NCBI GenBank assembly: GCA_030526155.1
Contig: JAUNDI010000003.1
Location: 79,456-130,572, forward strand
Reading direction: 5' to 3'
Length of the DNA: 51,117 bases
Source: Bacteroidia bacterium
Lineage (GTDB): Bacteria > Bacteroidota > Bacteroidia > Bacteroidales > Marinilabiliaceae
A program made the translations under genes and the position numbers. The notes below the pieces were generated by a model. The model did no database searches. It saw nothing but the letters and a program-made list of their open reading frames with translations, and had not been told where the DNA came from. How positions within the stretch are numbered: the first letter of the stretch is position 1; each line of letters opens with the position of its first letter. Of this stretch, positions 29,509 through 51,117 are shown in pieces.

Positions 29509-31077
29509 ATGAAAAGTAAAACGGTCATAGTGTGGCTTTGCGTGGTAATGTCCATGGCATTCATGGGACTTATCTATATGCAGACGGTATGGCTGACACA
29601 AGCGATTGAATTGAGAGAGAAGCATTTCAATCAGCTAGTTTGGCAAACTATTGATGCAGTTATCAAGAGGTTGGAGACTGACGAGATTTCGTTCATGAAA
29701 TCAGACAACAGGCTCAACATTCGGGATTGGCCTCTATACATGAGGAATCAGAGAAGGCACAGAACGCAGAATTCTAGCAAATCTTCCACTCCTGATTTTA
29801 ACATTTCGTTTGAAGTAGATGCCTACGGACGCTACAATCTAAGCACGTATAGAGAAGACACCCTTATCACAAGTGTTAATGGCCAGACGGAGATGGGCAA
29901 TATGGGCCATTTCGACCAGTTGACCAATGTGATATGGATGTTACAGTACGAGCTATTGAAGCGTACGGATGCGCAAGTACAGACACAGCTACATACTGCA
30001 TTTGAGTCGATACCTATCCAAGACAGAGTAAACTCATTCCGCCTTGAGGGACTTTTAGTGAACAACCTAAAAGAGCGAGGCATAACGGACGAGTTTGACT
30101 ATGCGGTATTAAACTCCAAGGGAGAGCGCACAGATATATGTTCGCCTGGTCTTGGCATACTTCCAGAGTTACCACCAGAGAATGAGCTATATGTACGTCA
30201 GCTATTCCCTAACGATGTACACGCCAAGCTACATAGCCTAGCCGTGTGGTTTCCTGATAGAAAATCGTCTATCAGTGATTTATTAGGATTGGTAATACCT
30301 ACTTCGATATTCACCTTATTGGTATTATCGATATCTATATACACGATAGTCATTATATTTAGGCAGAGAAAGCTTGACATAATAAAGAACGACTTTATCA
30401 ACAACATGACTCATGAGTTCAAGACTCCGATATCAACCATCTCGCTAGCGGCGCAGATGATGCAAGAGGGAGCTGAATTCTTGAAGCCCGAAAAGATAAA
30501 GAGGTATTCGACGACGATACGCAACGAGGGAGACAGGTTGACGAAGCAGGTAGAGAAGATATTACAGATGGCTGCCTTTGAAAAAGGCAAGGCGTCGTTG
30601 AAGTTGGAAGAGATGGATGTAAACGACATCATTGAGCGAGTAGCCAACGACTTCAGGGTAAAGGTAGAGAAAGACAATGGTTCTCTTGACCTACGACTAG
30701 AAGCGACGGATACAATAGCCATGGTGGACAAGGTACACTTTACCAACGTCATCTTCAACCTACTTGACAACGCTGTGAAGTACAAGAAGAGCGACGGAGC
30801 GCCAATGCTTTATATTAAGACAGTTAATAGAAACAAAGGTGTAATAATATCCATTAAAGACAATGGACTAGGAATTTCAAGAGATAACCTAGAGAGGATA
30901 TTTGAGAAATTCTACCGAGTACATACAGGCAACGTACATGACGTGAAAGGCTTTGGTCTAGGATTGGCCTACGTGAAGAAGATAGTAGAAGACCACGGAG
31001 GACAGATTACGGTGGAAAGCGAGTTGAACGTCGGCACGAAGTTTGATATTTACATACCATTAATGAATAAAAAGTAA
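29509..31077 (+). CDS. rprX: Sensor histidine kinase, RprX-like
   Basis: A 522-residue membrane kinase. Helices at about 5-28 and 257-284 flank a periplasmic sensor of about 225 residues. The H box is MTHEFKTPIS with His302, and the ATP-binding domain has the N box FNLLDNAVKY, the G1 box IKDNGLGI and the G2 box GFGLGLAYVK. It phosphorylates the response regulator encoded 23 bases downstream. The pair matches the RprX/RprY system of Bacteroides by organisation and sequence style; the symbol is given on that ground. Confidence 0.85.
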   Translation: MKSKTVIVWLCVVMSMAFMGLIYMQTVWLTQAIELREKHFNQLVWQTIDAVIKRLETDEISFMKSDNRLNIRDWPLYMRNQRRHRTQNSSKSSTPDFNISFEVDAYGRYNLSTYREDTLITSVNGQTEMGNMGHFDQLTNVIWMLQYELLKRTDAQVQTQLHTAFESIPIQDRVNSFRLEGLLVNNLKERGITDEFDYAVLNSKGERTDICSPGLGILPELPPENELYVRQLFPNDVHAKLHSLAVWFPDRKSSISDLLGLVIPTSIFTLLVLSISIYTIVIIFRQRKLDIIKNDFINNMTHEFKTPISTISLAAQMMQEGAEFLKPEKIKRYSTTIRNEGDRLTKQVEKILQMAAFEKGKASLKLEEMDVNDIIERVANDFRVKVEKDNGSLDLRLEATDTIAMVDKVHFTNVIFNLLDNAVKYKKSDGAPMLYIKTVNRNKGVIISIKDNGLGISRDNLERIFEKFYRVHTGNVHDVKGFGLGLAYVKKIVEDHGGQITVESELNVGTKFDIYIPLMNKK

Positions 31078-31100
31078 AACACTATAAAAAGAAGACTCAT

Positions 31101-31787
31101 ATGGAGAACATAGAGCACAAAATCCTTTTAGCAGAAGACGAAGAGAGCCTCGGCTTGATGCTCAGCGAGTACCTTGAGATGAAAGGGTACTCAGTAGAGT
31201 TGACCCACGATGGTGAGGAGGCATACAATGCATTCGTCTCAAAAAAGTTTGACATTTGTATCTTTGACGTAATGATGCCAAAGAAGGACGGATTTACACT
31301 TGCCAAAGAGATTCGCATGGTAAACGCTGAGGTGCCTATCATCTTCTTGACTGCCAAGACTATGAAAGAGGATATTCTTCAAGGATTCAAGATAGGTGCA
31401 GATGACTACTTGACAAAACCATTCAGCATGGAGGAGCTAATACTACGTATTGAGGCCATTCTACGTCGTACTAGCGGCAACAATGTTATCCAAGATGTTT
31501 ATATGCTCGGCAAGTACAAGTTTGACACACAGAAGCAGCAGTTGCTCCTTGAGGACAAGGTTATCAAGTTGACCACAAAAGAGAGTGAGCTTTTGAAACT
31601 TCTTTGTTCGAACGCCAACAAAGTATTGGAGCGTAACTTAGCGTTGAAGACCATTTGGGTTGACGACAACTACTTCAATGCTCGTTCGATGGACGTATAT
31701 ATCACAAAGTTGCGTAAGCACTTGAAGGAGGATCCATCAGTTGAGATTATCAACGTACACGGTAAGGGATACAAGTTGGTAGTCTAA
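31101..31787 (+). CDS. rprY: OmpR-family response regulator, RprY-like
   Basis: A 228-residue regulator. The receiver domain has the acidic pocket AEDEE, the phospho-acceptor Asp56 in FDVMMPKKDG, and the conserved TAK. The C-terminal winged helix (about 130-228) has the OmpR-type LTTKESELLKLLC and ITKLRKHLKEDP. It binds DNA after phosphorylation by the upstream kinase. Whether it controls the following operon is unknown. Confidence 0.9.
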   Translation: MENIEHKILLAEDEESLGLMLSEYLEMKGYSVELTHDGEEAYNAFVSKKFDICIFDVMMPKKDGFTLAKEIRMVNAEVPIIFLTAKTMKEDILQGFKIGADDYLTKPFSMEELILRIEAILRRTSGNNVIQDVYMLGKYKFDTQKQQLLLEDKVIKLTTKESELLKLLCSNANKVLERNLALKTIWVDDNYFNARSMDVYITKLRKHLKEDPSVEIINVHGKGYKLVV

Positions 31788-31957: not shown

Positions 31958-33790
31958 ATGGAGATTATCTCGGAATATGTTGGTCAGATTACAAACCTTG
32001 GGTGGTTTTTCATAATTCTGACGACGTGTATTTTTATCCTATCCGTAATTTATGGTGTAGGTTATTTGCACCATTACAAAGCGACCAATAAAGAGTTGAC
32101 CCTACATTGGGGGATGTTTGCGCTATGCTATGTAGGCATGATGGGGCTATATAGCACGCAGTCTATGCTATGGTTTCTTGTAGGATGGGAGTTGATGGCC
32201 TTAGGCTCATTTATGAGTGTAATTTTTGAGGCGGAGAAACCGGTAGTTCTGAAAGCGGGTATGAACTACTTTGTACAGAGTCACATTGGTGTACTATTCA
32301 TCACTGCAGCCTTTGTATGGGTATACTCGGTAACAGACAGGATGGACTTCAACACCATTCCGCTATTTATTGAGTCGTTGACAGAGACACAGCAAGTGGT
32401 TTGGATGATGCTACTTGTGAGTGGATTTGGCTTTAAGGCAGGTCTTATACCATTTCACTCATGGTTGCCACATGCGCACCCAGCAGCACCAAGTCATATT
32501 TCGGCAGCCATGTCGGGTGTTATAGTTAAGGCAGGCGTATATGGAGTAATACGCTTTGGCAGCTATATGACAATGGGCCATACCACCTTAGGAGCCATAG
32601 TATTGATATTAGCTATCCTTAGTGCTCTATATGGCATTATCAACGCAGCAGACGGCAGAGACTTCAAGAGGATATTAGCATATTGTACTATAGAGAATGT
32701 AGGCATAATATTTGCGGGCATAGGTGTAGCCTATATAGCTATAGGCGAGGATATGACAGCGTTGGCCTATTTAGGATTGATGGCGGCGCTATTCCACACA
32801 TTAAACCATGCCATATTTAAGGTAATGCTATTCTTTGCTGCAGGCAATGTATATGTATCTACCCACACAAGAGACATAGACCGCTTGGGAGGCATGTTAA
32901 AGATAATGCCACAATCGGGCTTACTATTCTTGATAGCAGCGATAGGCATTGGAGGACTTCCACCATTTGGAGGTTTTATATCAGAGATGATGTTGTATAG
33001 CGGATTCCTAAAAGGTATGGCTATGGATTCCCTTCCGCTATCAATATTGATGGTACTTAGTGGAGCTTCATTAGCCGTTGTAGGAGGAGCATCTATGCTA
33101 TGCTTTACAAAGACATTTGGTGTTATCTTCTTAGGAGTTAAGAGAGACGAAGAGATAAAACCACACCTAATAGCAGACAAGTATGCAGAGCAGAACAGCA
33201 TGACATACCCTATATGGCTATTAGTACCAGTAGTAATATGCATAGTAGCCTTCCCTAGTGTACTCTGCGCACTATTTATGGACTGTGTAAAAGAGATATA
33301 CAGCATAAACATGACAGCCAGTGAGGTTTACAGCATAACAAATAGCATTGACGTACTACAATCGATATCACTAGGAGCCCTAATACTCATAACTACATGC
33401 GCAGTACTAGGCGCAATAAGAGTATGGTTTATGCGACGCAGGCCAATGGCTGAGGGACCTACATGGGGTTGTGGTTATATGAAACCTATACGAGGCATAC
33501 AATATACTGGGCAGTCGTTCTCTGGCACGCTAGCAGAGCTATTCAGTTTTGTATTACCAAAGACAAGACACTACGAGCCGATACAACCAGAAGAGATATT
33601 CCCTAAACACAGGACCCTACTTAACGTTTCGCAAGACGCCATAGAGAAAGGCACCATAATGCCACTAGCAGATGGTGTAGTACACTTCTTGCAGAAGTTC
33701 CAATGGTTGATGAACGGACAGCTACAGCGATACATAATATACGGATTTATATCTGTATTACTATTAGTAATTGCTGCGATAATATTTTAA
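31958..33790 (+). CDS. Antiporter-like membrane subunit of an Ehr/Hyf-type complex (HyfB-like)
   Basis: A 610-residue protein of the NuoL/HyfB family with about 16 membrane helices. Residues needed for ion pumping in the family are present: the glutamate in WELMALG, the lysine in GFKAGLIPFHSWLPHAHP, and the lysine in LNHAIFKVMLFF. The protein lacks the long lateral helix of NuoL but has a short C-terminal extension, with hydrophobic ends and a soluble link (about 480-580). It would form the outer ion channel of the membrane arm. It is the first gene of a six-gene operon. Confidence 0.88.
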   Translation: MEIISEYVGQITNLGWFFIILTTCIFILSVIYGVGYLHHYKATNKELTLHWGMFALCYVGMMGLYSTQSMLWFLVGWELMALGSFMSVIFEAEKPVVLKAGMNYFVQSHIGVLFITAAFVWVYSVTDRMDFNTIPLFIESLTETQQVVWMMLLVSGFGFKAGLIPFHSWLPHAHPAAPSHISAAMSGVIVKAGVYGVIRFGSYMTMGHTTLGAIVLILAILSALYGIINAADGRDFKRILAYCTIENVGIIFAGIGVAYIAIGEDMTALAYLGLMAALFHTLNHAIFKVMLFFAAGNVYVSTHTRDIDRLGGMLKIMPQSGLLFLIAAIGIGGLPPFGGFISEMMLYSGFLKGMAMDSLPLSILMVLSGASLAVVGGASMLCFTKTFGVIFLGVKRDEEIKPHLIADKYAEQNSMTYPIWLLVPVVICIVAFPSVLCALFMDCVKEIYSINMTASEVYSITNSIDVLQSISLGALILITTCAVLGAIRVWFMRRRPMAEGPTWGCGYMKPIRGIQYTGQSFSGTLAELFSFVLPKTRHYEPIQPEEIFPKHRTLLNVSQDAIEKGTIMPLADGVVHFLQKFQWLMNGQLQRYIIYGFISVLLLVIAAIIF

Positions 33791-33814
33791 GGATAGACTA
33801 AACAGATATACGAT

Positions 33815-34699
33815 ATGTCTTTTTTACTAATACTATTGACGAGCTTTATATTTACAGGTATCGTCATTAGAACTAAGAGTATAGCGCAAGGTCGCAAAGG
33901 GCCTTCGGTATGGCAGCCAATGTATGACATATGGAAGTTGCTACACAAAGGATCTGTATATTCTACAGCATCTAGTTGGGTATTCAAAGTAGCCCCTACC
34001 TTTTACTTTGCATCGGTATTGGTAGCCTGCATGGTGGTACCTATAGCCAATATGGGCAGTGTAATAGGCTTTGAGGGTGACTTTATCTTCTTTGCGTATG
34101 TGCTAGGTTTTGGCAAGTTCTTCACTATTATAGGAGCGCTAGACACGGCATCATCCTTTGAAGGTATGGGTTCGGCTAGAGAGGCATTATTCTCGATGTT
34201 AGTAGAGCCAGCATTTTTTATATTGATAGGCTCTCTTGGGTTATTAACAGGCTACACATCATTTGCAGATATATTTGCGCAATTTCATTTTGAGAGTGAG
34301 ATATCCTTTGCCATAGCAGCCATAGCAGCCTTTGTGCTCTTGATGATATGTATGATAGAGAACTCACGCATGCCTGTAGACGATCCAAAGACACACTTGG
34401 AGCTTACTATGATACATGAGGTAATGGTACTTGACAACTCAGGCGTTGACATGGCCATGATACATCAGGCTACAAATATGAAGTTTGCGTTGTATTCGGC
34501 ACTTATAGTAAACCTATTTATAGGAGCAGTAGCAGATACATGGGCTCAGATAGCGCTATTCTTTGGCATTGAGTTGATATGTGCTGTAATGGTAGGTTTG
34601 ATAGAGTCGTTTATGGCAAGATATAGAATGACACACAATGCGCAGTTCATACTTGTATTGACGTCACTAGCATTATTATTGTATTTCGGCATAAAGTAA
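33815..34699 (+). CDS. Respiratory complex I subunit 1-like protein (HyfC/NuoH-like)
   Basis: A 294-residue membrane protein with eight or so helices. It has the family signatures RKGPSVWQPMYDIWKLLHKG and ENSRMPVDDPKTHLELTMIHE, including the conserved acidic loop residues that link redox and ion movement in complex I. It would join the membrane arm to the soluble arm. It starts 24 bases after the HyfB-like gene. Confidence 0.9.
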   Translation: MSFLLILLTSFIFTGIVIRTKSIAQGRKGPSVWQPMYDIWKLLHKGSVYSTASSWVFKVAPTFYFASVLVACMVVPIANMGSVIGFEGDFIFFAYVLGFGKFFTIIGALDTASSFEGMGSAREALFSMLVEPAFFILIGSLGLLTGYTSFADIFAQFHFESEISFAIAAIAAFVLLMICMIENSRMPVDDPKTHLELTMIHEVMVLDNSGVDMAMIHQATNMKFALYSALIVNLFIGAVADTWAQIALFFGIELICAVMVGLIESFMARYRMTHNAQFILVLTSLALLLYFGIK

Positions 34700-34711
34700 G
34701 GAGGAGTAGAT

Positions 34712-35344
34712 ATGAATACTATATTACTAATAGGATTTATGATTACGCTACTTTACTTTGCAGTAGCGAATAGAATGATGACATGCGTATCAATATTAGT
34801 CATCCAAGGACTATTGATATGTGGAGTAGCGATACTATCTCTACATGAGATGAACTTGTTAAATCTAGGAATTATTCTTCTTGAGACATTGATAGTCAAA
34901 GCGACATTGATGCCATTCTTTATCAGAAGAGTTATTATTAAGAACAAGATAACTAGAGAAACAGAACCATCAGTTTCTAATAGTGTTTCACTTGCTATAG
35001 TTTCTGCCATTGTAGTATTGACATACGTAGCAAGTCACTACATGCCACACCCAGATTCACTTAACATAACATACTTCGTGACAGCGCTCTCTGCGATATT
35101 GAGCGGCCTATACTTCGTGGCTACGCGACGTAAGGTGATTACACACGTAATATGCTATGTAATAGTAGAGAATGGTGCATTTATACTCTCGTTAGCCAAC
35201 GGCAGTGAGATGCCAGCCATGGTAAACCTTGGCGTATTACTTGACGTGCTAGTCAGCGTATTCCTCCTAGGTATCTTCATCAACAAGGTAGGAGACGTTA
35301 CAGGCGATGGAGATGTAAGTGGATTGACCAATTTGAAAGATTAA
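34712..35344 (+). CDS. HyfE-like membrane subunit (NuoK-related)
   Basis: A 210-residue protein with about six helices. LGIILLETLIVKATLMPFF carries Glu59 and Lys63, and a later VENGAFIL carries another buried glutamate, the pattern of the NuoK-like N-terminal part of HyfE. It would transmit protons in the membrane arm. Gap to the previous gene is 12 bases. Confidence 0.82.
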   Translation: MNTILLIGFMITLLYFAVANRMMTCVSILVIQGLLICGVAILSLHEMNLLNLGIILLETLIVKATLMPFFIRRVIIKNKITRETEPSVSNSVSLAIVSAIVVLTYVASHYMPHPDSLNITYFVTALSAILSGLYFVATRRKVITHVICYVIVENGAFILSLANGSEMPAMVNLGVLLDVLVSVFLLGIFINKVGDVTGDGDVSGLTNLKD

Positions 35345-35373
35345 GCTATTAATAAACAGAATAGGAAAGATAT

Positions 35374-36789
35374 ATGATACTGATATATTTGATAGCTGCA
35401 TTAGCCATTGGATTTACACAATTCGTCATACGTAACAGAGCGATGACGCATGTAGTAGCGACGATGACGATAGCATTACAATGGGTATTGACAATCTATG
35501 CTACATTTCACAGAGATGAGATAGATTTGACATTCTTCAAATATGATGGGCTTGCGATATTGATGTTGTGGGCATTGACGCTAATTTCTTCAGTAGTCAT
35601 GATGCACTCGACACGTTACATAGAGACTCCGCTACATTTGGACCTCAACAAGATGACAGCGCAGTACTATGGAGCGATGCAGATATTGATTATGGCGCTA
35701 TCGGCAGCCTGCTTGTCGAACCATATTGCTATGACATGGATATTTGTGGAGATTACCACTCTATCGGCATCGGCATTGATATTCTACAGAAGAGGCAAAG
35801 GAGAGATTGAGGCCACATGGAAATATGTATTTGCGTGCTCAATAAGCCTTGTATTTGTGTATGTAGGCATATTATTCTTGACTATAGCTATGCAACCCGG
35901 CATGAGAGAGTCGTTAGACTTCACATCACTTGAGCGCAATGCCACAGCTATGGACCAGTTTTGGCTCAAGATGGCTATGATATTTATTTTTGTAGGATAC
36001 TCAGCCAAGATGTCATTAGTACCAATGTTTACAGCAGGTATTGATGCCAAAGACGAGGCACCTACACCAGCTGCAGCCATGCTCTCTAGTGTACTTATGA
36101 ATACAGGTTTTGTAGCATTCTACAGATTTTATAGAGTAATACAAAACTCGGGAGCTTACGACTGGGGACGAGGAGTGGTACTAGCCGTAGCACTTGTGAG
36201 CCTTTTTGTAGCTGCAGTATATTTGATAAGGGTACACAATGTGAAGCGACTCTTTGCCTATTCAAGTGTTGAGCACATGGCAGTATCGATGCTTGGCTTA
36301 GCAGCGGGAGGAGTAGGCGTAGTATATTGCATATTACATGTAGTTATACACTCATTCGTAAAATCGTCTATTTTCCTACACATTAGTAACCTCTATAGAG
36401 TATATGGCACGAAGCAGCTAAGCTATATTGGTCGCTATATCCGCTACTCGTGGACAGGAACTATTATAGTAATATTAGCTACTATATCCATAACAGCCAT
36501 GCCTCCATCGGGACTATTCTTCACAGAGTTGATGATATTCAAGTCTATGATAGACGCGCATTGGTGGGTATGGATGGTAATTGCGATGTTACTACTCACG
36601 GTAATAGTATGGGCTATAAGCAGAGATATGTTTGCATTACTATTCCAGAAAGAAGAAGAGCCATCAGAGGTAACACCTAAGAAGGTACACATGCCAGCCA
36701 TAGAGATGGCGGGGCAGCTTCTCTTGCTCTTTATCGCTATTTGGTTGGGTATTCATACACCAGCCTATGTGTTGGACCTATTATCTTGA
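35374..36789 (+). CDS. Antiporter-like membrane subunit (HyfF-like)
   Basis: A 471-residue protein with about 14 helices, the second NuoL/NuoN-like subunit of the operon. The glutamate in WIFVEITTLSA, the lysine in GYSAKMSLVPMF and the helix with HSFVKSSIFLHISN are conserved. The C-terminus ends with a charged loop (KEEEPSEVTPKK) and one last helix. It is followed after 8 bases by the NuoCD-like gene. Confidence 0.87.
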   Translation: MILIYLIAALAIGFTQFVIRNRAMTHVVATMTIALQWVLTIYATFHRDEIDLTFFKYDGLAILMLWALTLISSVVMMHSTRYIETPLHLDLNKMTAQYYGAMQILIMALSAACLSNHIAMTWIFVEITTLSASALIFYRRGKGEIEATWKYVFACSISLVFVYVGILFLTIAMQPGMRESLDFTSLERNATAMDQFWLKMAMIFIFVGYSAKMSLVPMFTAGIDAKDEAPTPAAAMLSSVLMNTGFVAFYRFYRVIQNSGAYDWGRGVVLAVALVSLFVAAVYLIRVHNVKRLFAYSSVEHMAVSMLGLAAGGVGVVYCILHVVIHSFVKSSIFLHISNLYRVYGTKQLSYIGRYIRYSWTGTIIVILATISITAMPPSGLFFTELMIFKSMIDAHWWVWMVIAMLLLTVIVWAISRDMFALLFQKEEEPSEVTPKKVHMPAIEMAGQLLLLFIAIWLGIHTPAYVLDLLS

Positions 36790-36797
36790 TTTAGGAT

Positions 36798-38300
36798 ATG
36801 AAGATAACGAACAATCAGGTAGTTGCTCTTTCAGATATAGAGCGCTTGACATACACCGACTTCTTCATGCAAGTCAGCAATGCCCTCAGCAGCGATGCGG
36901 CACACTGTGTAAGCTACTTTGCTTTGCCAGAAGGAGGCGAAGAGTACACACTCATATGCTACATAGCAAATGATGAGAGCCATGACGTGGAGCTATTTGC
37001 TGCTAAGGTTAGCAAAACAGAAGAGCTACAGAGCCTCACAGCCCAGTATCTTGCGCTTCATCCATTTGAGCGAGAGATATACGAGCAATATGCGTTGAAC
37101 TTTGTGGGACATCCATGGCTAAAGCCATTGAGATATTCACATGACAGACAAACTGGCGGTGACATATACGATTATCCATTCTACCAGATAGATAGTCCAG
37201 AGCTACACAGAGTAGGCGTAGGTCCTATTCACGCCGGTATTATTGAGCCAGGACACTTCAGATTTATCTGCGAAGGAGAGAAGATACATCACTTAGAGAT
37301 ACAGTTAGGCTGGCAGCACAGAGGTATAGAGAACCTCTTTGTAGAGAAGAAGAAGCTACTACAACGCGCTACACTAGCTGAGAATATAGCAGGCGACACT
37401 GTAGTAGGACATTCGACAGCCTTTGTGAACGCTACAGAAGCCCTAGCCGGGTGGGAGGCACCAGAGTGGCTACAGATAGAGCGAGCTATAGCACTTGAGC
37501 AAGAGCGCATAGCGATACATACTGGTGACCTAAGTGCTATATGTACAGACGTTGCCTACCAGCTAGGTAATGCTGTATTTGGCAGATTGAGAACACCAAT
37601 GATCAACTACCTACAGAAATGGTGTGGTAGTAGATTTGCCAAGAGTTTGATACGTCCGTTCAAGACAAACTTCCTCTTTACAGAGGCTCTTGCCAAAGAT
37701 TGGGAAGAGACCATATCTAAGTACTTGCCACACTTCACAGAGATGGCAGAGCAGATGTTTGACCTACCAAGTGTACTTTCACGTATAGAACGTACTGGAG
37801 TGGTACCTACTCAGACAGCACAGACTATAGGACTAGTAGGCATGGCAGGCAAGGCAAGCGGATTGAGCAGAGACGTACGCGCTAGTCACCCTTGGGGAGC
37901 ATACAAGACCCTCAACTACGAGCCAGTGGTAATGCAATCCGGCGACGTATATGCCAGAGCACAGATGCGCTATAAGGAGATTTTGAAATCCATACAACTT
38001 ATTCGCGATTTGATAGCAAAGCGTAGGGCGTTAGGAGAGCAGCAAAAGATAGAGAACCCACAGACAAAGTGGGAGGCCAAGGCAGATAGTATAGTACTCT
38101 CTATGACAGAAGGCTGGAGAGGTATGATATGCCATGTAGCTGTTACGGGTGCAGATGGCGACTTAAGAGCCTATAAGATAGCAGACCCATCAGTACACAA
38201 CTGGTTAGGCCTAGCCCTTGCGGTTAGAGAGAATGGAATCAGTGATTTCCCTATCTGTAACAAGAGCTTCGACCTATCATATTGCGGTCATGATTTGTAA
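36798..38300 (+). CDS. Hydrogenase large-subunit homologue (HyfG/NuoCD-like) lacking all NiFe cysteines
   Basis: A 500-residue protein. Residues about 10-105 are NuoC-like and about 130-500 are NuoD/hydrogenase-large-subunit-like, as in HycE and HyfG. The motif GVGPIHAGIIEPGHFRF identifies the hydrogenase-4 type. In place of the N-terminal CxxC ligands the protein reads NIAGDTVVGHS: Ala198 and Thr201 replace both cysteines, while His205 is kept. In place of DPCxxC it reads DLSYCG: Ser494 and Gly497 replace both cysteines (Cys496 is out of register). No NiFe centre can be held, so it is not a hydrogenase. No hydrogenase maturation gene was seen nearby. This puts it in the Ehr group, between hydrogenases and complex I. 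The ligand or electron carrier is unknown. Confidence 0.88.
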   Translation: MKITNNQVVALSDIERLTYTDFFMQVSNALSSDAAHCVSYFALPEGGEEYTLICYIANDESHDVELFAAKVSKTEELQSLTAQYLALHPFEREIYEQYALNFVGHPWLKPLRYSHDRQTGGDIYDYPFYQIDSPELHRVGVGPIHAGIIEPGHFRFICEGEKIHHLEIQLGWQHRGIENLFVEKKKLLQRATLAENIAGDTVVGHSTAFVNATEALAGWEAPEWLQIERAIALEQERIAIHTGDLSAICTDVAYQLGNAVFGRLRTPMINYLQKWCGSRFAKSLIRPFKTNFLFTEALAKDWEETISKYLPHFTEMAEQMFDLPSVLSRIERTGVVPTQTAQTIGLVGMAGKASGLSRDVRASHPWGAYKTLNYEPVVMQSGDVYARAQMRYKEILKSIQLIRDLIAKRRALGEQQKIENPQTKWEAKADSIVLSMTEGWRGMICHVAVTGADGDLRAYKIADPSVHNWLGLALAVRENGISDFPICNKSFDLSYCGHDL

Positions 38301-38332
38301 GAACCTTATCTAACTGATAATAATATAAACAG

Positions 38333-39097
38333 ATGCAAATGTTAGAGACATTAAAGATATGGTGGCATCAAGGTAAGCAGTGGATACCAGATGTTGAGAC
38401 TACAGAAGTACCAGGAATATTCCGCGGTCGTCCTATCATTAAAGCAGGCGTAGCAGTAGATGAGGCTATGTTGTTAGACCTTTGTCCGATGGACGCCATA
38501 CAGACCAATCCGCTTGCTATAGACCTTGGTAAGTGTTCGTTCTGTGGAGAGTGTGCCTTTGCGTGTCCTGATAAGATACAATTTACCAAAGACTTCAAGC
38601 TCTCGCACAATTTGCGTGAGGGATTGATAATCAAGGAAGGTGTAGAAGAGCCTATCAGAGTAGATGCTGAGAAGGTAAGGAAAGAGATTAGAAGACTCTT
38701 TGGCAGGTCGCTCAAACTACGTCAGGTATCAGCAGGCGGAGATGGCTCATGCGAGATGGAGCTCAATGCTACTGGAAATGTCAACTTTGACGTAGGACGC
38801 TTTGGTATAGACTTTGTGGCATCGCCACGTCATGCCGACGGCATAGTATTGACTGGTCCGATAAGTGAGAATATGGCAGAGCCATTCCTAGACGCCTACA
38901 ATGCGGTACCAGACCCTAAGGTATTGATACTAGCAGGAACTGATGCCATAAGCGGAGGACTATTTGCAGATTCAGAGGCGGTAAACCGCTCGGTATTAAA
39001 AGACCTACATGTAGACCTTTACGTACCAGGCAATCCTGTACACCCATTGACCTTTGTAAACGGCGTGTTAGGATTACTGGGCAAGATGAAGCACTAA
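38333..39097 (+). CDS. Ferredoxin (HyfH/NuoI) - HyfI/NuoB fusion with reduced cluster set
   Basis: A 254-residue protein that joins two subunits that are usually separate. The N-terminal part (about 25-90) is an 8Fe ferredoxin remnant: the first CxxCxxC is absent but its following CP (Cys51) stays, and the second motif CSFCGECAFACP (Cys68, 71, 74, 78) is complete. One [4Fe-4S] cluster can therefore form (Cys68, 71, 74 and 51). The C-terminal part (about 130-254) is NuoB/HyfI-like (DVGRFGIDFVASPRHADGI, VLTGPISENM). Of its four cluster ligands only Cys140 remains; Asp137, Asp204 and Asn234 replace the others. The proximal cluster is probably absent. Start could also be Met3. Confidence 0.85.
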   Translation: MQMLETLKIWWHQGKQWIPDVETTEVPGIFRGRPIIKAGVAVDEAMLLDLCPMDAIQTNPLAIDLGKCSFCGECAFACPDKIQFTKDFKLSHNLREGLIIKEGVEEPIRVDAEKVRKEIRRLFGRSLKLRQVSAGGDGSCEMELNATGNVNFDVGRFGIDFVASPRHADGIVLTGPISENMAEPFLDAYNAVPDPKVLILAGTDAISGGLFADSEAVNRSVLKDLHVDLYVPGNPVHPLTFVNGVLGLLGKMKH

Positions 39098-47195: not shown

Positions 47196-47717
47196 CTACT
47201 CCATACCTAACTTAGCTCTCACCATAGGTTCGGCATCATAACTAAGTGGAGAGTATGAAAGTATGACTTTGGTACTAGTATCAAAAATATAGGTAAAGTC
47301 ATGCTCTTCACGCACCTTGTCTATAGCCTCCATAATTTTATCTATGATAGGCTGAAGAAGCTTCTGCTCTTTCTCTGTAATACTTCTCATAGCCATCTCA
47401 CGATATGAGGTTATTCTTGCCTCTGTATCTTGAAGATCTTTCTCTATGGTATTACGTACCAAGTCGGGCAAATCATCACGTTTCTGTATGTAGTCGGCAT
47501 ATCTACGCTCTAGCTCAGCGTTCATAACGAGCAACTGATCTTTAAGCTTCTGCGTCTCTTCATACAACTGGGCTTCTGCATCTTTCTTAGCAGGGTAATC
47601 ATTTAATATACTCTGAAAGTTAAGGTGCGCAAACCTATAGTCTTGTGCCGAAATGCCGACAATCGACTCTATTATCAACACAAGAGCAACTATGATGTAG
47701 CGTGTAGAGCGACTCAT
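47196..47717 (-). CDS. OmpH/Skp family chaperone (fourth copy)
   Basis: A 173-residue periplasmic protein with a signal peptide (cleavage near GISAQD). The body is a charged coiled coil (about 45-130, with DLPDLVRNTIEKDLQDTEARI), and the C-terminal AEPMVRAKLGM is the family ending. Skp binds unfolded outer-membrane proteins. It starts 19 bases after the third copy. Confidence 0.85.
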   Translation of the reverse strand: MSRSTRYIIVALVLIIESIVGISAQDYRFAHLNFQSILNDYPAKKDAEAQLYEETQKLKDQLLVMNAELERRYADYIQKRDDLPDLVRNTIEKDLQDTEARITSYREMAMRSITEKEQKLLQPIIDKIMEAIDKVREEHDFTYIFDTSTKVILSYSPLSYDAEPMVRAKLGME

Positions 47718-47736
47718 AAACGCAATCTTTTATTAC

Positions 47737-48258
47737 TTAGTTAGCCTTTGGTGCTGCTGCTATCTTAGCCAATACTAGTGGCTCTGCATCAACACTCTGC
47801 TCAGAATGGAAAAGAACTACCTGTGACGATAGGTCGAAGATATAGATAAAACCATTCTCCTTACCTACTGCATCAATAGCCTCTTGTACCTTTGCAAATA
47901 TAGGTTGGAACAACTTTGCTTGTGTCTGCTGTAGGCTCTGCTCTGCAGCCTTACCCATAACTTGCATACGCTGTTGCATCTCTGTCAACTCTTGCTCTTT
48001 CACTTGGCGTACTACATCAGGAAGAGAGTCTGCCTTTGATACATAATCGTTATACTTTGTCTGTAGCTCTTGTTGCATCGACTGCATCTGCTCTGATATC
48101 TTATTGCTCTCTGCCTCAAGTTTAGCTTGTGCTTGCTTGAACTCATCAAGCTGTGCAATCAATTTCTGCGAGTCAACATGTGCAAACTTTTGCTGTGCCG
48201 AAGCTGATACAGTAAATAATACTGCGACAGCTACTAATATAATGTTCTTAATCTTCAT
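47737..48258 (-). CDS. OmpH/Skp family chaperone (third copy)
   Basis: A 173-residue periplasmic protein with signal peptide (VSASAQQ) and the N-terminal FAHVDSQKLIAQL typical of the family. The middle is a Gln-rich coiled coil (MQSMQQELQTKYNDYVSKA). The C-terminus AEPLVLAKIAAAP ends with a short extra tail. Gap to copy two is 31 bases. Confidence 0.87.
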   Translation of the reverse strand: MKIKNIILVAVAVLFTVSASAQQKFAHVDSQKLIAQLDEFKQAQAKLEAESNKISEQMQSMQQELQTKYNDYVSKADSLPDVVRQVKEQELTEMQQRMQVMGKAAEQSLQQTQAKLFQPIFAKVQEAIDAVGKENGFIYIFDLSSQVVLFHSEQSVDAEPLVLAKIAAAPKAN

Positions 48259-48289
48259 TGTGCTGTTAGATTTATTATATGATAATGGT

Positions 48290-48796
48290 TTAATTCATTC
48301 CAAGTTTAGCCTTTACAAGTGGTGTAATATCTACACTCTTGTCTGATACATGTACAGTCAAGCCACCTTCACTCTCAAAAATGTAAAGAAAACCGTTCTC
48401 TACACCTATCTCTTGAACTATTCGTAGCAACTTCTGCTGAATAGGTACCATACGCTCCTGCATCTGCTGCTGCATATCTCTTTGGGCAGTTTGAATGAAT
48501 GTTTGCACTCTCTGATCTAACTCTTGTAGCTCAGTGAAGGCCTCCCTCTTCTCGTCATCAGTCATTGTAGCCTGCTTGTTTTGTAGCTCTTGCATCATTG
48601 TGTTTTGCTGCTCACGTAATGTTGCCACCTGCGACTCAATTTCTCCTTGACGCTTATCCATGTCAGTTTGCAATTGCTTAACATCTGGCATCTGCTCCAT
48701 AAAAGCAGCACTGTTAAAATGACCAAACTTAAGCTCTTGCGCTTGCATAATAGGTACGAAAACCATCAATGCAAGGAGAGTAAATAAGTATCTCAT
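48290..48796 (-). CDS. OmpH/Skp family chaperone (second copy)
   Basis: A 168-residue periplasmic protein with signal peptide (PIMQAQ) and a Gln/Met-rich coiled coil (about 40-125). It ends with VDITPLVKAKLGMN. It begins 37 bases after the first copy. Confidence 0.87.
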   Translation of the reverse strand: MRYLFTLLALMVFVPIMQAQELKFGHFNSAAFMEQMPDVKQLQTDMDKRQGEIESQVATLREQQNTMMQELQNKQATMTDDEKREAFTELQELDQRVQTFIQTAQRDMQQQMQERMVPIQQKLLRIVQEIGVENGFLYIFESEGGLTVHVSDKSVDITPLVKAKLGMN

Positions 48797-48833
48797 TGTT
48801 CGTATATTTTGTTAAGTGTATGTATTATCCTTA

Positions 48834-49349
48834 TTATTTGGAATAGCCCAAGTTCTTCAATACTAAATCTGATATATCAAGACTAGAATCTGCAAACATT
48901 AATCCGTTTGTAGACGACTTATCAAATATAGCACTCAAATTCTTCTCTTTTGCTACCGCCATAATAGCATTATATACTCTGTCTTGGATAGGTTTCACAA
49001 GCGACTCACGACTCTTGTATAGATCGCCATCCTGTCCAAAGTATTTCTGCTGAAGTTGTTTTGCCGCCTTCTCTTTCTCTACTATCTCATTCTCTTTCTT
49101 AACCTTCATATCGTTCGACAAGAATACACTCTCTGTACGATAGGTCTCGTACAAATTTGCTACCTCTTGCATCTTTGCCTTTACCTCATCCTCATACTTC
49201 TTGGAGATGGCTGATAGTTGCTCGTTGGCCGACTCATATGCTGGTATATTCTTTAGTATATACTCAGTATCTACAAATGCTATCTTCTGTGCCGATACGC
49301 CACATATCATAGCTACCATAAGCGCGAGAGTCAAAAATATATTCTTCAT
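48834..49349 (-). CDS. OmpH/Skp family chaperone (first copy)
   Basis: A 171-residue periplasmic protein with signal peptide (CGVSAQ). KIAFVDTEYILKNIPAYESA is the canonical Skp N-terminus, and DISDLVLKNLGY is the family C-terminus. It follows bamA after 75 bases, the usual bamA-skp order. Confidence 0.9.
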   Translation of the reverse strand: MKNIFLTLALMVAMICGVSAQKIAFVDTEYILKNIPAYESANEQLSAISKKYEDEVKAKMQEVANLYETYRTESVFLSNDMKVKKENEIVEKEKAAKQLQQKYFGQDGDLYKSRESLVKPIQDRVYNAIMAVAKEKNLSAIFDKSSTNGLMFADSSLDISDLVLKNLGYSK

Positions 49350-49424
49350 ATCCTTAAGTGTTTAGTTTATAAATATTGTAACACTAATCAATCATTCAAA
49401 TTGCGTGCCAAAAATTACTACTCA

Positions 49425-51117
49425 TTAGAATGATTGACCCATTACAAAGTGGAATTGTGATCCTCCAGCGTTAGAGAAGCCCTTAACTTCGTCAAATCCA
49501 TATCCCCAATCTACGCCTAACAAACCAAACATTGGTAAGAATACACGTAAACCTACACCTGCTGATCTCTTCAAGTCAAATGGAGAGTAATCTTGGAACT
49601 CACTCCAACAGTTACCTGCCTCAGCAAATGCTAACGCATATACAGTAGCATTTGGCTTCAAGGTCAATGGGTATCTCAACTCCATTGTAAACTTGTTGTA
49701 TATGTTACCATCATACGAATATGTAGTGGTATTAGTATTGTTTGCTTGATTCTCAAATCTCTTATTCCTTGACGTACGTGGTGTCAATGACGAGTTCTCA
49801 TAACCTCTCAAACCAATGGTCTCCTCACCATAGGTCGAGTAACCAGACATACCATCACCACCCATTACATACTTCTGGAATGGCGACTTACGGTACTTAT
49901 CATAGTATCCAAGATAACCCATCTCGAACTTACCCATCAAGATAAACTTGTGAGCAACATCAAGTGGCTTAAATACCGCACCCTTGATTGTCCACTTATG
50001 GTATTCAATAAACTCATACAACTTCTGGTCATCACGCTCATTCTTCCAATCATGATTTGAGAATAATGAGTATGGAGGAGTAAAGTGTACTCCTAACGAG
50101 AAGCTAGATCCCTGACGTGTATAGATCGGATTGTCAATAGAGCTACGAGACAATGTAACGCCTAATGACAAATCATGGCTATGTCCATTCTGCATCAAGA
50201 AGTACATCCAGTTACGTAGGCTATAGTGTTGATAACTGAGCTCTGCATAGAGGTTAAACCAGTCGTCTGGCCATGTGAGACGCTTACCAAAACCTACCGA
50301 CAAGCCATATACCTTACGGAACTGATGAATATCTTTCTTCTTCTGTGGCGCATTAGATCCTGCCATATCATAACCGCCAGAATATCCGTTGTAGAAGTTA
50401 TTATAGTACGAACTACTTACACCTGTCTGCGATGAAACATAAGCAGAAACAGTCAACGAGTTTGGTCTCTTACCACCTAACCATGGCTCAGTAAACGAAA
50501 CACTGAACGACTTAAAGTACTTACCATTGGCTTGTGCTTGAAGGGACAACTTCTGTCCATCGCCTGTAGGTAGCGGACTATACGCCTCTTTATTAAAGAT
50601 ATTTCTCAATGAGAAGTTATTGAATGATAGGCCTATAGTTCCTACGAACATACCAGCACCCCATCCACCAGACAACTGTATCTGGTCGTTAGACTTCTCT
50701 TGGAGATTATATATAATGTCTACTACTCCATTATCCTCATCTGGCGTTGGAACCGGATTTATTGTCTCAGGGTCAAAATGTCCTAATTGGGCCAACTCTC
50801 TGACTGTACGAATAAGATCTGCTCTACTGAACAGTTGTCCAGGCTTAGTTCTAAGCTCTCGTCTAGCTACACTCTCATGTGTCTTGTCATTACCTTTAAT
50901 AACAATCTCTCGAATAGAAGCCTGCTTACCCTCTGCAACTCTAATCTCAAAGTCTATAGTATCCCCATTTACATTACTTTCAATAGGTATTACCTTGGAG
51001 AATAGATAACCATTATTGTAATATTCATTATGTACAGCATCATCATCTTGGAATAATCGCTTATTTAGCTTCTCACTATTATAAACGTCTCCCTTCTTCA
51101 TCTGCAACAAATATTGT
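49425..51117 (-). CDS. bamA: Outer membrane assembly factor BamA (N-terminus outside window)
   Basis: The frame is open to the right window edge; about 564 C-terminal residues are visible. POTRA-type modules come first (VHNEYYNNGYLFSKV, IVIKGNDKTHESVARRELR), then the 16-strand barrel with FSVSFTEPWLGGKRPNSL and the L6 motif LRGY. The final strand ends in phenylalanine (GQSF), as needed for barrel insertion. BamA folds outer-membrane proteins. It heads the Skp cluster, which is consistent with joint function. Confidence 0.95.
   Translation of the reverse strand, partial: QYLLQMKKGDVYNSEKLNKRLFQDDDAVHNEYYNNGYLFSKVIPIESNVNGDTIDFEIRVAEGKQASIREIVIKGNDKTHESVARRELRTKPGQLFSRADLIRTVRELAQLGHFDPETINPVPTPDEDNGVVDIIYNLQEKSNDQIQLSGGWGAGMFVGTIGLSFNNFSLRNIFNKEAYSPLPTGDGQKLSLQAQANGKYFKSFSVSFTEPWLGGKRPNSLTVSAYVSSQTGVSSSYYNNFYNGYSGGYDMAGSNAPQKKKDIHQFRKVYGLSVGFGKRLTWPDDWFNLYAELSYQHYSLRNWMYFLMQNGHSHDLSLGVTLSRSSIDNPIYTRQGSSFSLGVHFTPPYSLFSNHDWKNERDDQKLYEFIEYHKWTIKGAVFKPLDVAHKFILMGKFEMGYLGYYDKYRKSPFQKYVMGGDGMSGYSTYGEETIGLRGYENSSLTPRTSRNKRFENQANNTNTTTYSYDGNIYNKFTMELRYPLTLKPNATVYALAFAEAGNCWSEFQDYSPFDLKRSAGVGLRVFLPMFGLLGVDWGYGFDEVKGFSNAGGSQFHFVMGQSF

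Follow-up and report, generated by a model that had tools for sequence, protein, structure and literature searches.

An Ehr-type operon of Bacteroidales in which a conserved Asp/Ser/Asp/Asn set stands at the former N2 iron-sulfur cluster site

A stretch of 51,117 nucleotides from Bacteroidia bacterium (Bacteroidales; Marinilabiliaceae; assembly GCA_030526155.1, contig JAUNDI010000003.1, positions 79,456 to 130,572), hereafter the window, carries an operon for a hydrogenase-4-like complex without the cysteine ligands of the NiFe site. In its HyfH-HyfI fusion protein, the ligand positions of the proximal [4Fe-4S] cluster (N2) are taken over by acidic and polar residues, which are shared by a group of Bacteroidales operons that we call the window type. 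The N2-replaced type fits the known NiFe-less energy-converting-hydrogenase-related (Ehr) complexes, apart from its N2 site. We tentatively regard it as an ion transporter whose soluble arm may serve as a gate.

Results

Open reading frames, Pfam and NCBIfam place six genes in hydrogenase-4 order on the + strand at 31958-39097 of the window, in agreement with a preliminary description of this DNA. They encode a HyfB-like antiporter subunit (31958..33790, 610 aa; Pfam Proton_antipo_M), a HyfC/NuoH-like anchor subunit (33815..34699, 294 aa; NADHdh), a HyfE/NuoK-like subunit (34712..35344, 210 aa; Oxidored_q2, below the cut-off), a HyfF-like antiporter subunit (35374..36789, 471 aa; Proton_antipo_M), a HyfG-like large subunit that is a NuoC+NuoD fusion (36798..38300, 500 aa; Complex1_49kDa and 30kDa), and a HyfH-HyfI fusion made of a ferredoxin part and a NuoB-like part (38333..39097, 254 aa; Oxidored_q6 and Fer4). 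The top NCBIfam matches of HyfB, HyfE and HyfF are hydrogenase-4 models, every one below its cut-off. Among solved structures, those closest in sequence to HyfG and to the NuoB-like part are formate hydrogenlyase (FHL) of E. coli (7z0s) and the membrane-bound hydrogenase (MBH) of P. furiosus (6cfw). Homologues with 90-92% identity to the window HyfG occur in Bacteroidales metagenome-assembled genomes from horse faeces, and the host genome has 2.6 Mb in 85 contigs and is 91% complete.

The four N2 ligands (C-C-C-C) read D137, C140, D204 and N234 in the aligned fusion protein of the window: the former CxxC with the first two ligands is now D137-x-S139-C140 (38741..38752), followed by D204 (38942..38944) and N234 (39032..39034), all on the + strand. 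Three of the four proximal cysteines are indeed gone, as the preliminary description had it, but this is not mere loss, since Asp, Ser, Asp and Asn are fixed instead. In 81 full-length replaced rows (the window and 80 other loci, from separate fetches of 15, 1 and 64), position 137 is Asp in 79 and Glu in 2, position 139 is Ser in 79, position 204 is Asp in 80 and Glu in 1, and position 234 is Asn in all 81. Since the rows were grouped by residue state, the counts at 137, 204 and 234 are in part a result of that choice. The identity of the replacing residues, always the same, is not a consequence of this grouping. The one N2 cysteine left in the window, C140, is not conserved (Cys in 61/81; the remaining 20 rows have Ala, Gly, Asn, Ser, Thr or Val).

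An unselected figure comes from an order sample of 344 Bacteroidales genomes, 77 of which matched the fusion protein with an E value of at most 1e-30. The N2 site is replaced in 72 of these 77 (two of them read from partial genes), all N2 cysteines are kept in four (loci L189-L192) and one holds a distant type (L039). Genus mates with a readable fusion gene carry the same replacement in 10 of 10 cases. Left out of the 81 rows were L037 (window-type), L193 and L194 (partial, window-type where readable), L031, L036 and L040 (fusion gene not found on the contig) and the distant L039, L090 and L091; for L205, a NuoB-like match was not found.

In the ferredoxin part, C51, C68, C71 and C74 are the sole complete [4Fe-4S] ligand set (38483..38554, + strand), and each is Cys in 81/81 rows. 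C51 is the 'CP' cysteine of ferredoxin motif 1, and the other three come from motif 2, whose fourth cysteine is C78. Two-cluster ferredoxins draw three ligands of each cluster from one motif and the fourth from the other, and for this reason the four residues form one complete site, which we take to correspond to N6b of complex I. The ligand set of the other cluster, N6a, is incomplete in all 81 rows. Position 78 is Cys in 16 rows, Phe in 54, Leu in 5, and Tyr, Ser and Ala in 2 each, and C78 is a leftover of the lost N6a cluster. Thus, the earlier count of one remaining cluster was correct, and the statement that one of the two ferredoxin motifs is gone has to be rejected because the surviving set draws on both motifs.

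Likewise, all four NiFe cysteines are missing from HyfG, as had been claimed. Alignment with E. coli HycE/HyfG puts A198, T201, S494 and G497 at the ligand positions; the former motif L1 (CGxC) is now A198-G-D-T201 (37389..37400) and the former motif L2 (CxxC) is S494-Y-C-G497 (38277..38288), both on the + strand. The protein terminates with SYCGHDL directly past the former L2 motif, without a C-terminal extension. HypD for NiFe maturation was not found in the window genome at its 91% completeness. Among 19 operon genomes searched, HypD is absent in the window genome and 10 others and present in 8, where it perhaps serves other hydrogenases.

Twelve Bacteroidota relatives without NiFe retain all four N2 cysteines (the N2-containing but more distant L086 and L087 and plasmid rows are not counted among the 12), and the N2 cysteines are kept in 25 of 28 NiFe-less relatives read outside the window type. 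When 63-81 window-type rows were compared with 11-12 N2-containing rows over six subunits, with a fixed difference defined as one residue in at least 90% of the window type and another in at least 75% of the relatives, only six fixed differences emerged: HI137, HI139, HI204 and HI234 of the fusion protein, G282 of HyfG (Lys for Arg) and B183 of HyfB (Gly for Ala). Four of the six sit at the former N2 site. Both N6a and N2 are intact in the N2-containing relatives nearest to the window type (L078, L189-L191), whereas the window type itself has neither. On a different branch, L079 and L080 have lost N6a ligands but not N2.

HyfG trees with E. coli as the root place the window type within the N2-containing complexes. 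In a fusion-protein tree built with the ligand columns removed (34 rows: 24 window-type rows of the 81 and 10 others), it forms one clade with support 98/90, that is, a single origin of the N2 replacement. The other N2-less rows differ in their replacing residues: the N2 positions read D,C,D,D in L039 (a Bacteroidales genome), T,D,E,S in L090 (Allomeiothermus plasmid) and N,D,D,A in L091 (Mycobacterium branderi plasmid), with at least two acidic residues each. The two plasmid Ehr operons resemble the window in that the N6b set is kept and N6a is lost, and L039 has no ferredoxin part in the fusion-equivalent protein. One clade of all N2-less rows was rejected by the approximately unbiased (AU) test on HyfG (p 3.3e-6), as was one of the window type and L090 alone (p 1.5e-6); these AU tests used 46 rows and groups named after residues and tree had been seen. 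L039, L090 and L091 fall apart from one another in the HyfG tree, on long branches that make their placement, like that of L093, unsure. Other phyla apparently underwent similar conversions of their own (L090, L091), and convergence on acidic replacement, seen in three long-branch rows, is suggestive only.

All six genes are under strong purifying selection. Compared with two close species of about 85-95% protein identity (Nei-Gojobori), dN is 0.04-0.10 and dS 1.1-2.0, and dN/dS is about 0.03-0.07 in each gene; a third species (L029) gave no dS due to saturation of synonymous sites. Neither a frameshift nor relaxed selection was seen in the operon.

The charged residues of the membrane subunits, described earlier as kept for ion translocation, are present in nearly all window-type rows and match E. 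coli Hyf except for HyfE E58. HyfB E78, K160, K191, H280, H284, K288 and K385 correspond to E. coli HyfB E142, K221, K252, H344, H348, K352 and K449, and each is kept in at least 62 of 63 rows (N-terminal HyfB counts of relatives were excluded as a trimming artefact). HyfC D110, E123, E131, E182, D189, E196 and E202 are invariant in 66/66 rows and acidic in E. coli HyfC too. HyfE E58, K63, E153 and D178 are invariant in 67/67, and E. coli HyfE shares the last three. HyfF E126, K212, K291, H326 and K330 are found in 69/69 rows and E385 in 68/69, all in common with E. coli HyfF. The start of the window HyfB (31958-32160) lies about 66 residues later than that of E. coli HyfB. Many relatives (29 loci, including L126-L132 and L134-L137) have two tandem HyfB-like genes, and the window has one.

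Soluble and membrane parts are present or absent together in 23/23 genomes chosen for examination. HyfC occurs in 20/20 of those with HyfG or the fusion gene and in 0/3 genus mates without HyfG, one of which (G006) is only 84% complete. In 8 of the 20 (G005, G007, G011, G384, G387, G490, G596 and G662), the membrane genes are at a distance from HyfG or the fusion gene. Given this joint presence despite broken gene order, the two halves are apparently passed on together as a single machine. At loci L027, L028, L031, L188, L190, L174, L176 and L180, HyfG and/or the fusion gene is separated, with HyfC on another contig of the same genome.

Directly upstream of the operon, a histidine kinase and a response regulator (29509..31787, + strand) are possible regulators, and this pair stands in the same position only in L030 and L033. 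Elsewhere in the window, four OmpH-type genes lie in a row beside an Omp85/POTRA gene on the minus strand (47196-51110). RnfC-type proteins were found in 19/19 genomes searched and do not discriminate.

Clustering placed a SulP-type anion transporter beside N2-containing Bacteroidota Ehr operons at four loci (L078, L084, L085 and L087) and a protein combining helix-turn-helix and phosphotransferase system (PTS) EIIA parts at seven (L079-L085), with Pfam run on one member of each cluster. In L087, a single protein combines SulP, STAS and EIIA, and its gene separates HyfG from the fusion gene. These neighbours hint at an anion or bicarbonate link of the N2-containing operons. In plasmid Ehr operons of Rhizobium, Azospirillum and Bradyrhizobium (L089, L092, L094, L207 and the unannotated L208), N2 is kept and no ferredoxin part was seen, which is the opposite choice of surviving cluster from the window type. 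On a Variovorax plasmid (L088), two dissimilar Ehr operons are separated by a few kb; the first encodes the full HyfH-HyfI fusion and the second the NuoB-like part only.

Discussion

NiFe-less Ehr complexes are known, and their function is given as unknown in several papers (PMC6349859, PMC13194489, PMC10284858, PMC6728331, PMC3569383, PMC7304191). Like the window complex, they have hydrogenase-4-like subunits and lack the NiFe cysteines (PMC10284858, PMC6349859). The Ehr label of the preliminary description suits the window operon in its group-4-like large subunit with A198/T201/S494/G497 and in its NuoH-like and antiporter-like membrane subunits, but does not convey that the iron-sulfur relay to N2, intact in the N2-containing relatives, is here interrupted by D137, D204 and N234 in place of Cys. 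Among the top literature matches, which were often unrelated and did not cover key subscription papers, we found no described Ehr or complex I relative with replaced N2 ligands.

E. coli hydrogenase-4/FHL shares with the window the subunit families, the gene order B-C-E-F-G-H-I and the membrane charges. On the other hand, the window operon has no hyfD or hyfA, lacks the NiFe, N2 and N6a ligand sets and has HyfH and HyfI fused; without the four NiFe cysteines and with no HypD found in the genome, it does not have the marks of a group 4 [NiFe] hydrogenase. It also lacks two marks of complex I in alignment with E. coli NuoB/NuoCD, namely N2 with consecutive cysteines and the quinone-site Tyr, whose position is taken by Gly-199 of the window HyfG. 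Mrp cation/proton antiporters consist of MrpA-MrpG without NuoH, NuoD or NuoB, whereas the window has subunits like all three and a conserved soluble arm. Their antiporter-like subunits, which exchange cations and protons, are related to those of the window (PMC7419157). The membrane-bound sulfane sulfur reductase (MBS) of Pyrococcus furiosus likewise has no NiFe site and keeps the pump; its proximal cluster is the catalytic centre, beside three loops linking the soluble arm to the pump (PMC7684303), whereas in the window the ligands for such a three-cysteine proximal [4Fe-4S] cluster are gone.

Our preferred reading, to which we assign a probability of about 0.4, is that the complex is an Ehr variant whose cluster site has turned into an oxygen-ligand site, and that it transports ions without conventional through-electron flow, with gating by N6b and by a bound cation or ligand. 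The NiFe site would have been lost first and later, in the window-type clade, the N6a-like outer ferredoxin cluster and N2, the ligand positions of which would have become a fixed Asp-Ser-Asp-Asn oxygen site. An ordered, selective loss, as proposed before, is thus retained for NiFe before N2, but the order of N6a and N2 is not, since the nearest relatives keep both. The membrane arm would still move ions, H+ and/or Na+, and the soluble arm would most likely act as a gate or in coupling. Its Asp/Ser/Asp/Asn site, beside the coupling loops, may hold a cation or polar ligand that sets the conformation, and the surviving N6b-like cluster may report its redox state to this site. Gaps in the FHL relay are below 14 Å (PMC9474812), and with N2 missing, about two hops would therefore lie between N6b and HyfG. 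Since the N2 cluster is removed, electrons should not reach HyfG, and ordinary electron flow is probably not what drives the pump. Slightly less likely again is the broader claim that a [4Fe-4S] site was converted once to an oxygen-ligand site for a metal or other ligand and kept clade-wide (72/344 Bacteroidales, about a fifth), leaving a complex I-like pump that would draw its energy, or be gated, without passing electrons on to a terminal acceptor.

Several observations weigh against this reading. Conservation of the N6b-like cluster in 81/81 rows could mean real electron transfer. A menaquinone pathway marker is present in 56 of 60 chosen operon genomes (three N2-containing), which would fit a quinone enzyme: menD was found at E 1e-40 in 16 (15 above the cut-off; split over two contigs in G041) and the futalosine marker PF02621 in 41, with both in G409. 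No neighbour gene common to more than five window-type loci was found in flanks of a few kb, and therefore nothing there points to a ligand or regulator. Moreover, a single window-type clade is rejected on HyfG (AU p 0.0047). This is owing to L190, which groups within the window type by its HyfG but not by its fusion protein, where all N2 and ferredoxin cysteines are present. L190 is an apparent hybrid operon, and separate N2-site conversions within the window type may be an alternative.

The main rival, which we consider less likely, is that the complex is still a reductase with its active site moved back: a polar substrate or organic cofactor would bind at D137/S139/D204/N234, receive electrons from N6b one hop away, and its chemistry would drive the pump. 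The full N6b ligand set in every row, next to a fixed polar site, speaks for this, and MBS provides a precedent for a proximal cluster as catalytic site (PMC7684303). The series from NiFe (MBH) through the proximal cluster (MBS) would then extend to the vacated proximal site. However, the N6a ligand set is incomplete in 81/81 rows, a conserved donor gene was not found within the flanks read, and the sequence gives no hint of a substrate. A quinone-linked or other electron transfer through an unrecognised cofactor in the cavity, for example a flavin or haem, is a good deal less probable; the menaquinone markers would suit it, but four of the 60 genomes (G011, G059, G535 and G662, 96-99% complete; G011 is counted on its HyfG only) have neither menD nor the futalosine marker, though quinone uptake is possible, and Gly-199 occupies what we take to be the quinone tyrosine position.

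Between these two in likelihood, and improbable in our view, lies charge mimicry. A [4Fe-4S](Cys)4 cluster has a charge of about -2, and two Asp might simply hold the fold and the coupling loops in a constitutive, Mrp-like cation/proton antiporter, with both the oxygen site and N6b being structural. It agrees with the two or more acidic positions in every N2-less group and with how little else has changed (six fixed differences), but structure alone does not readily explain Asn-234 in 81/81 and Ser-139 in 79/81 rows, and the Rhizobium/Azospirillum operons without a ferredoxin part indicate that N6b is not required for the fold there. A decaying relic or a sequencing error is hardly credible, as no evidence in its favour was found, 81 rows agree and dN/dS is low in all six genes. 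The preliminary description had named retention of the cysteines in close relatives as the sign of such an isolated defect, and the relatives share the replacement (10/10 genus mates, 72/77 genomes of the order sample). We therefore reject a local defect; its view of a real, repurposed machine, which is also old and under selection, is upheld by the same 72/77 genomes, the low dN/dS and the joint presence of soluble and membrane parts in 23/23, and its suggestion of an ion pump or sensor driven by something other than hydrogen stays a conjecture.

Finally, how the redox chemistry of N2 is coupled to pumping in complex I is a long-standing question. In the window type, evolution took out N2 but neither the pump nor the anchor subunit nor one cluster nearby, and numerous species retain this arrangement. 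Provided that ions are still moved by the complex, coupling in the superfamily would not depend on electron transfer through N2. The Asp/Ser/Asp/Asn site offers a clear mutational handle.

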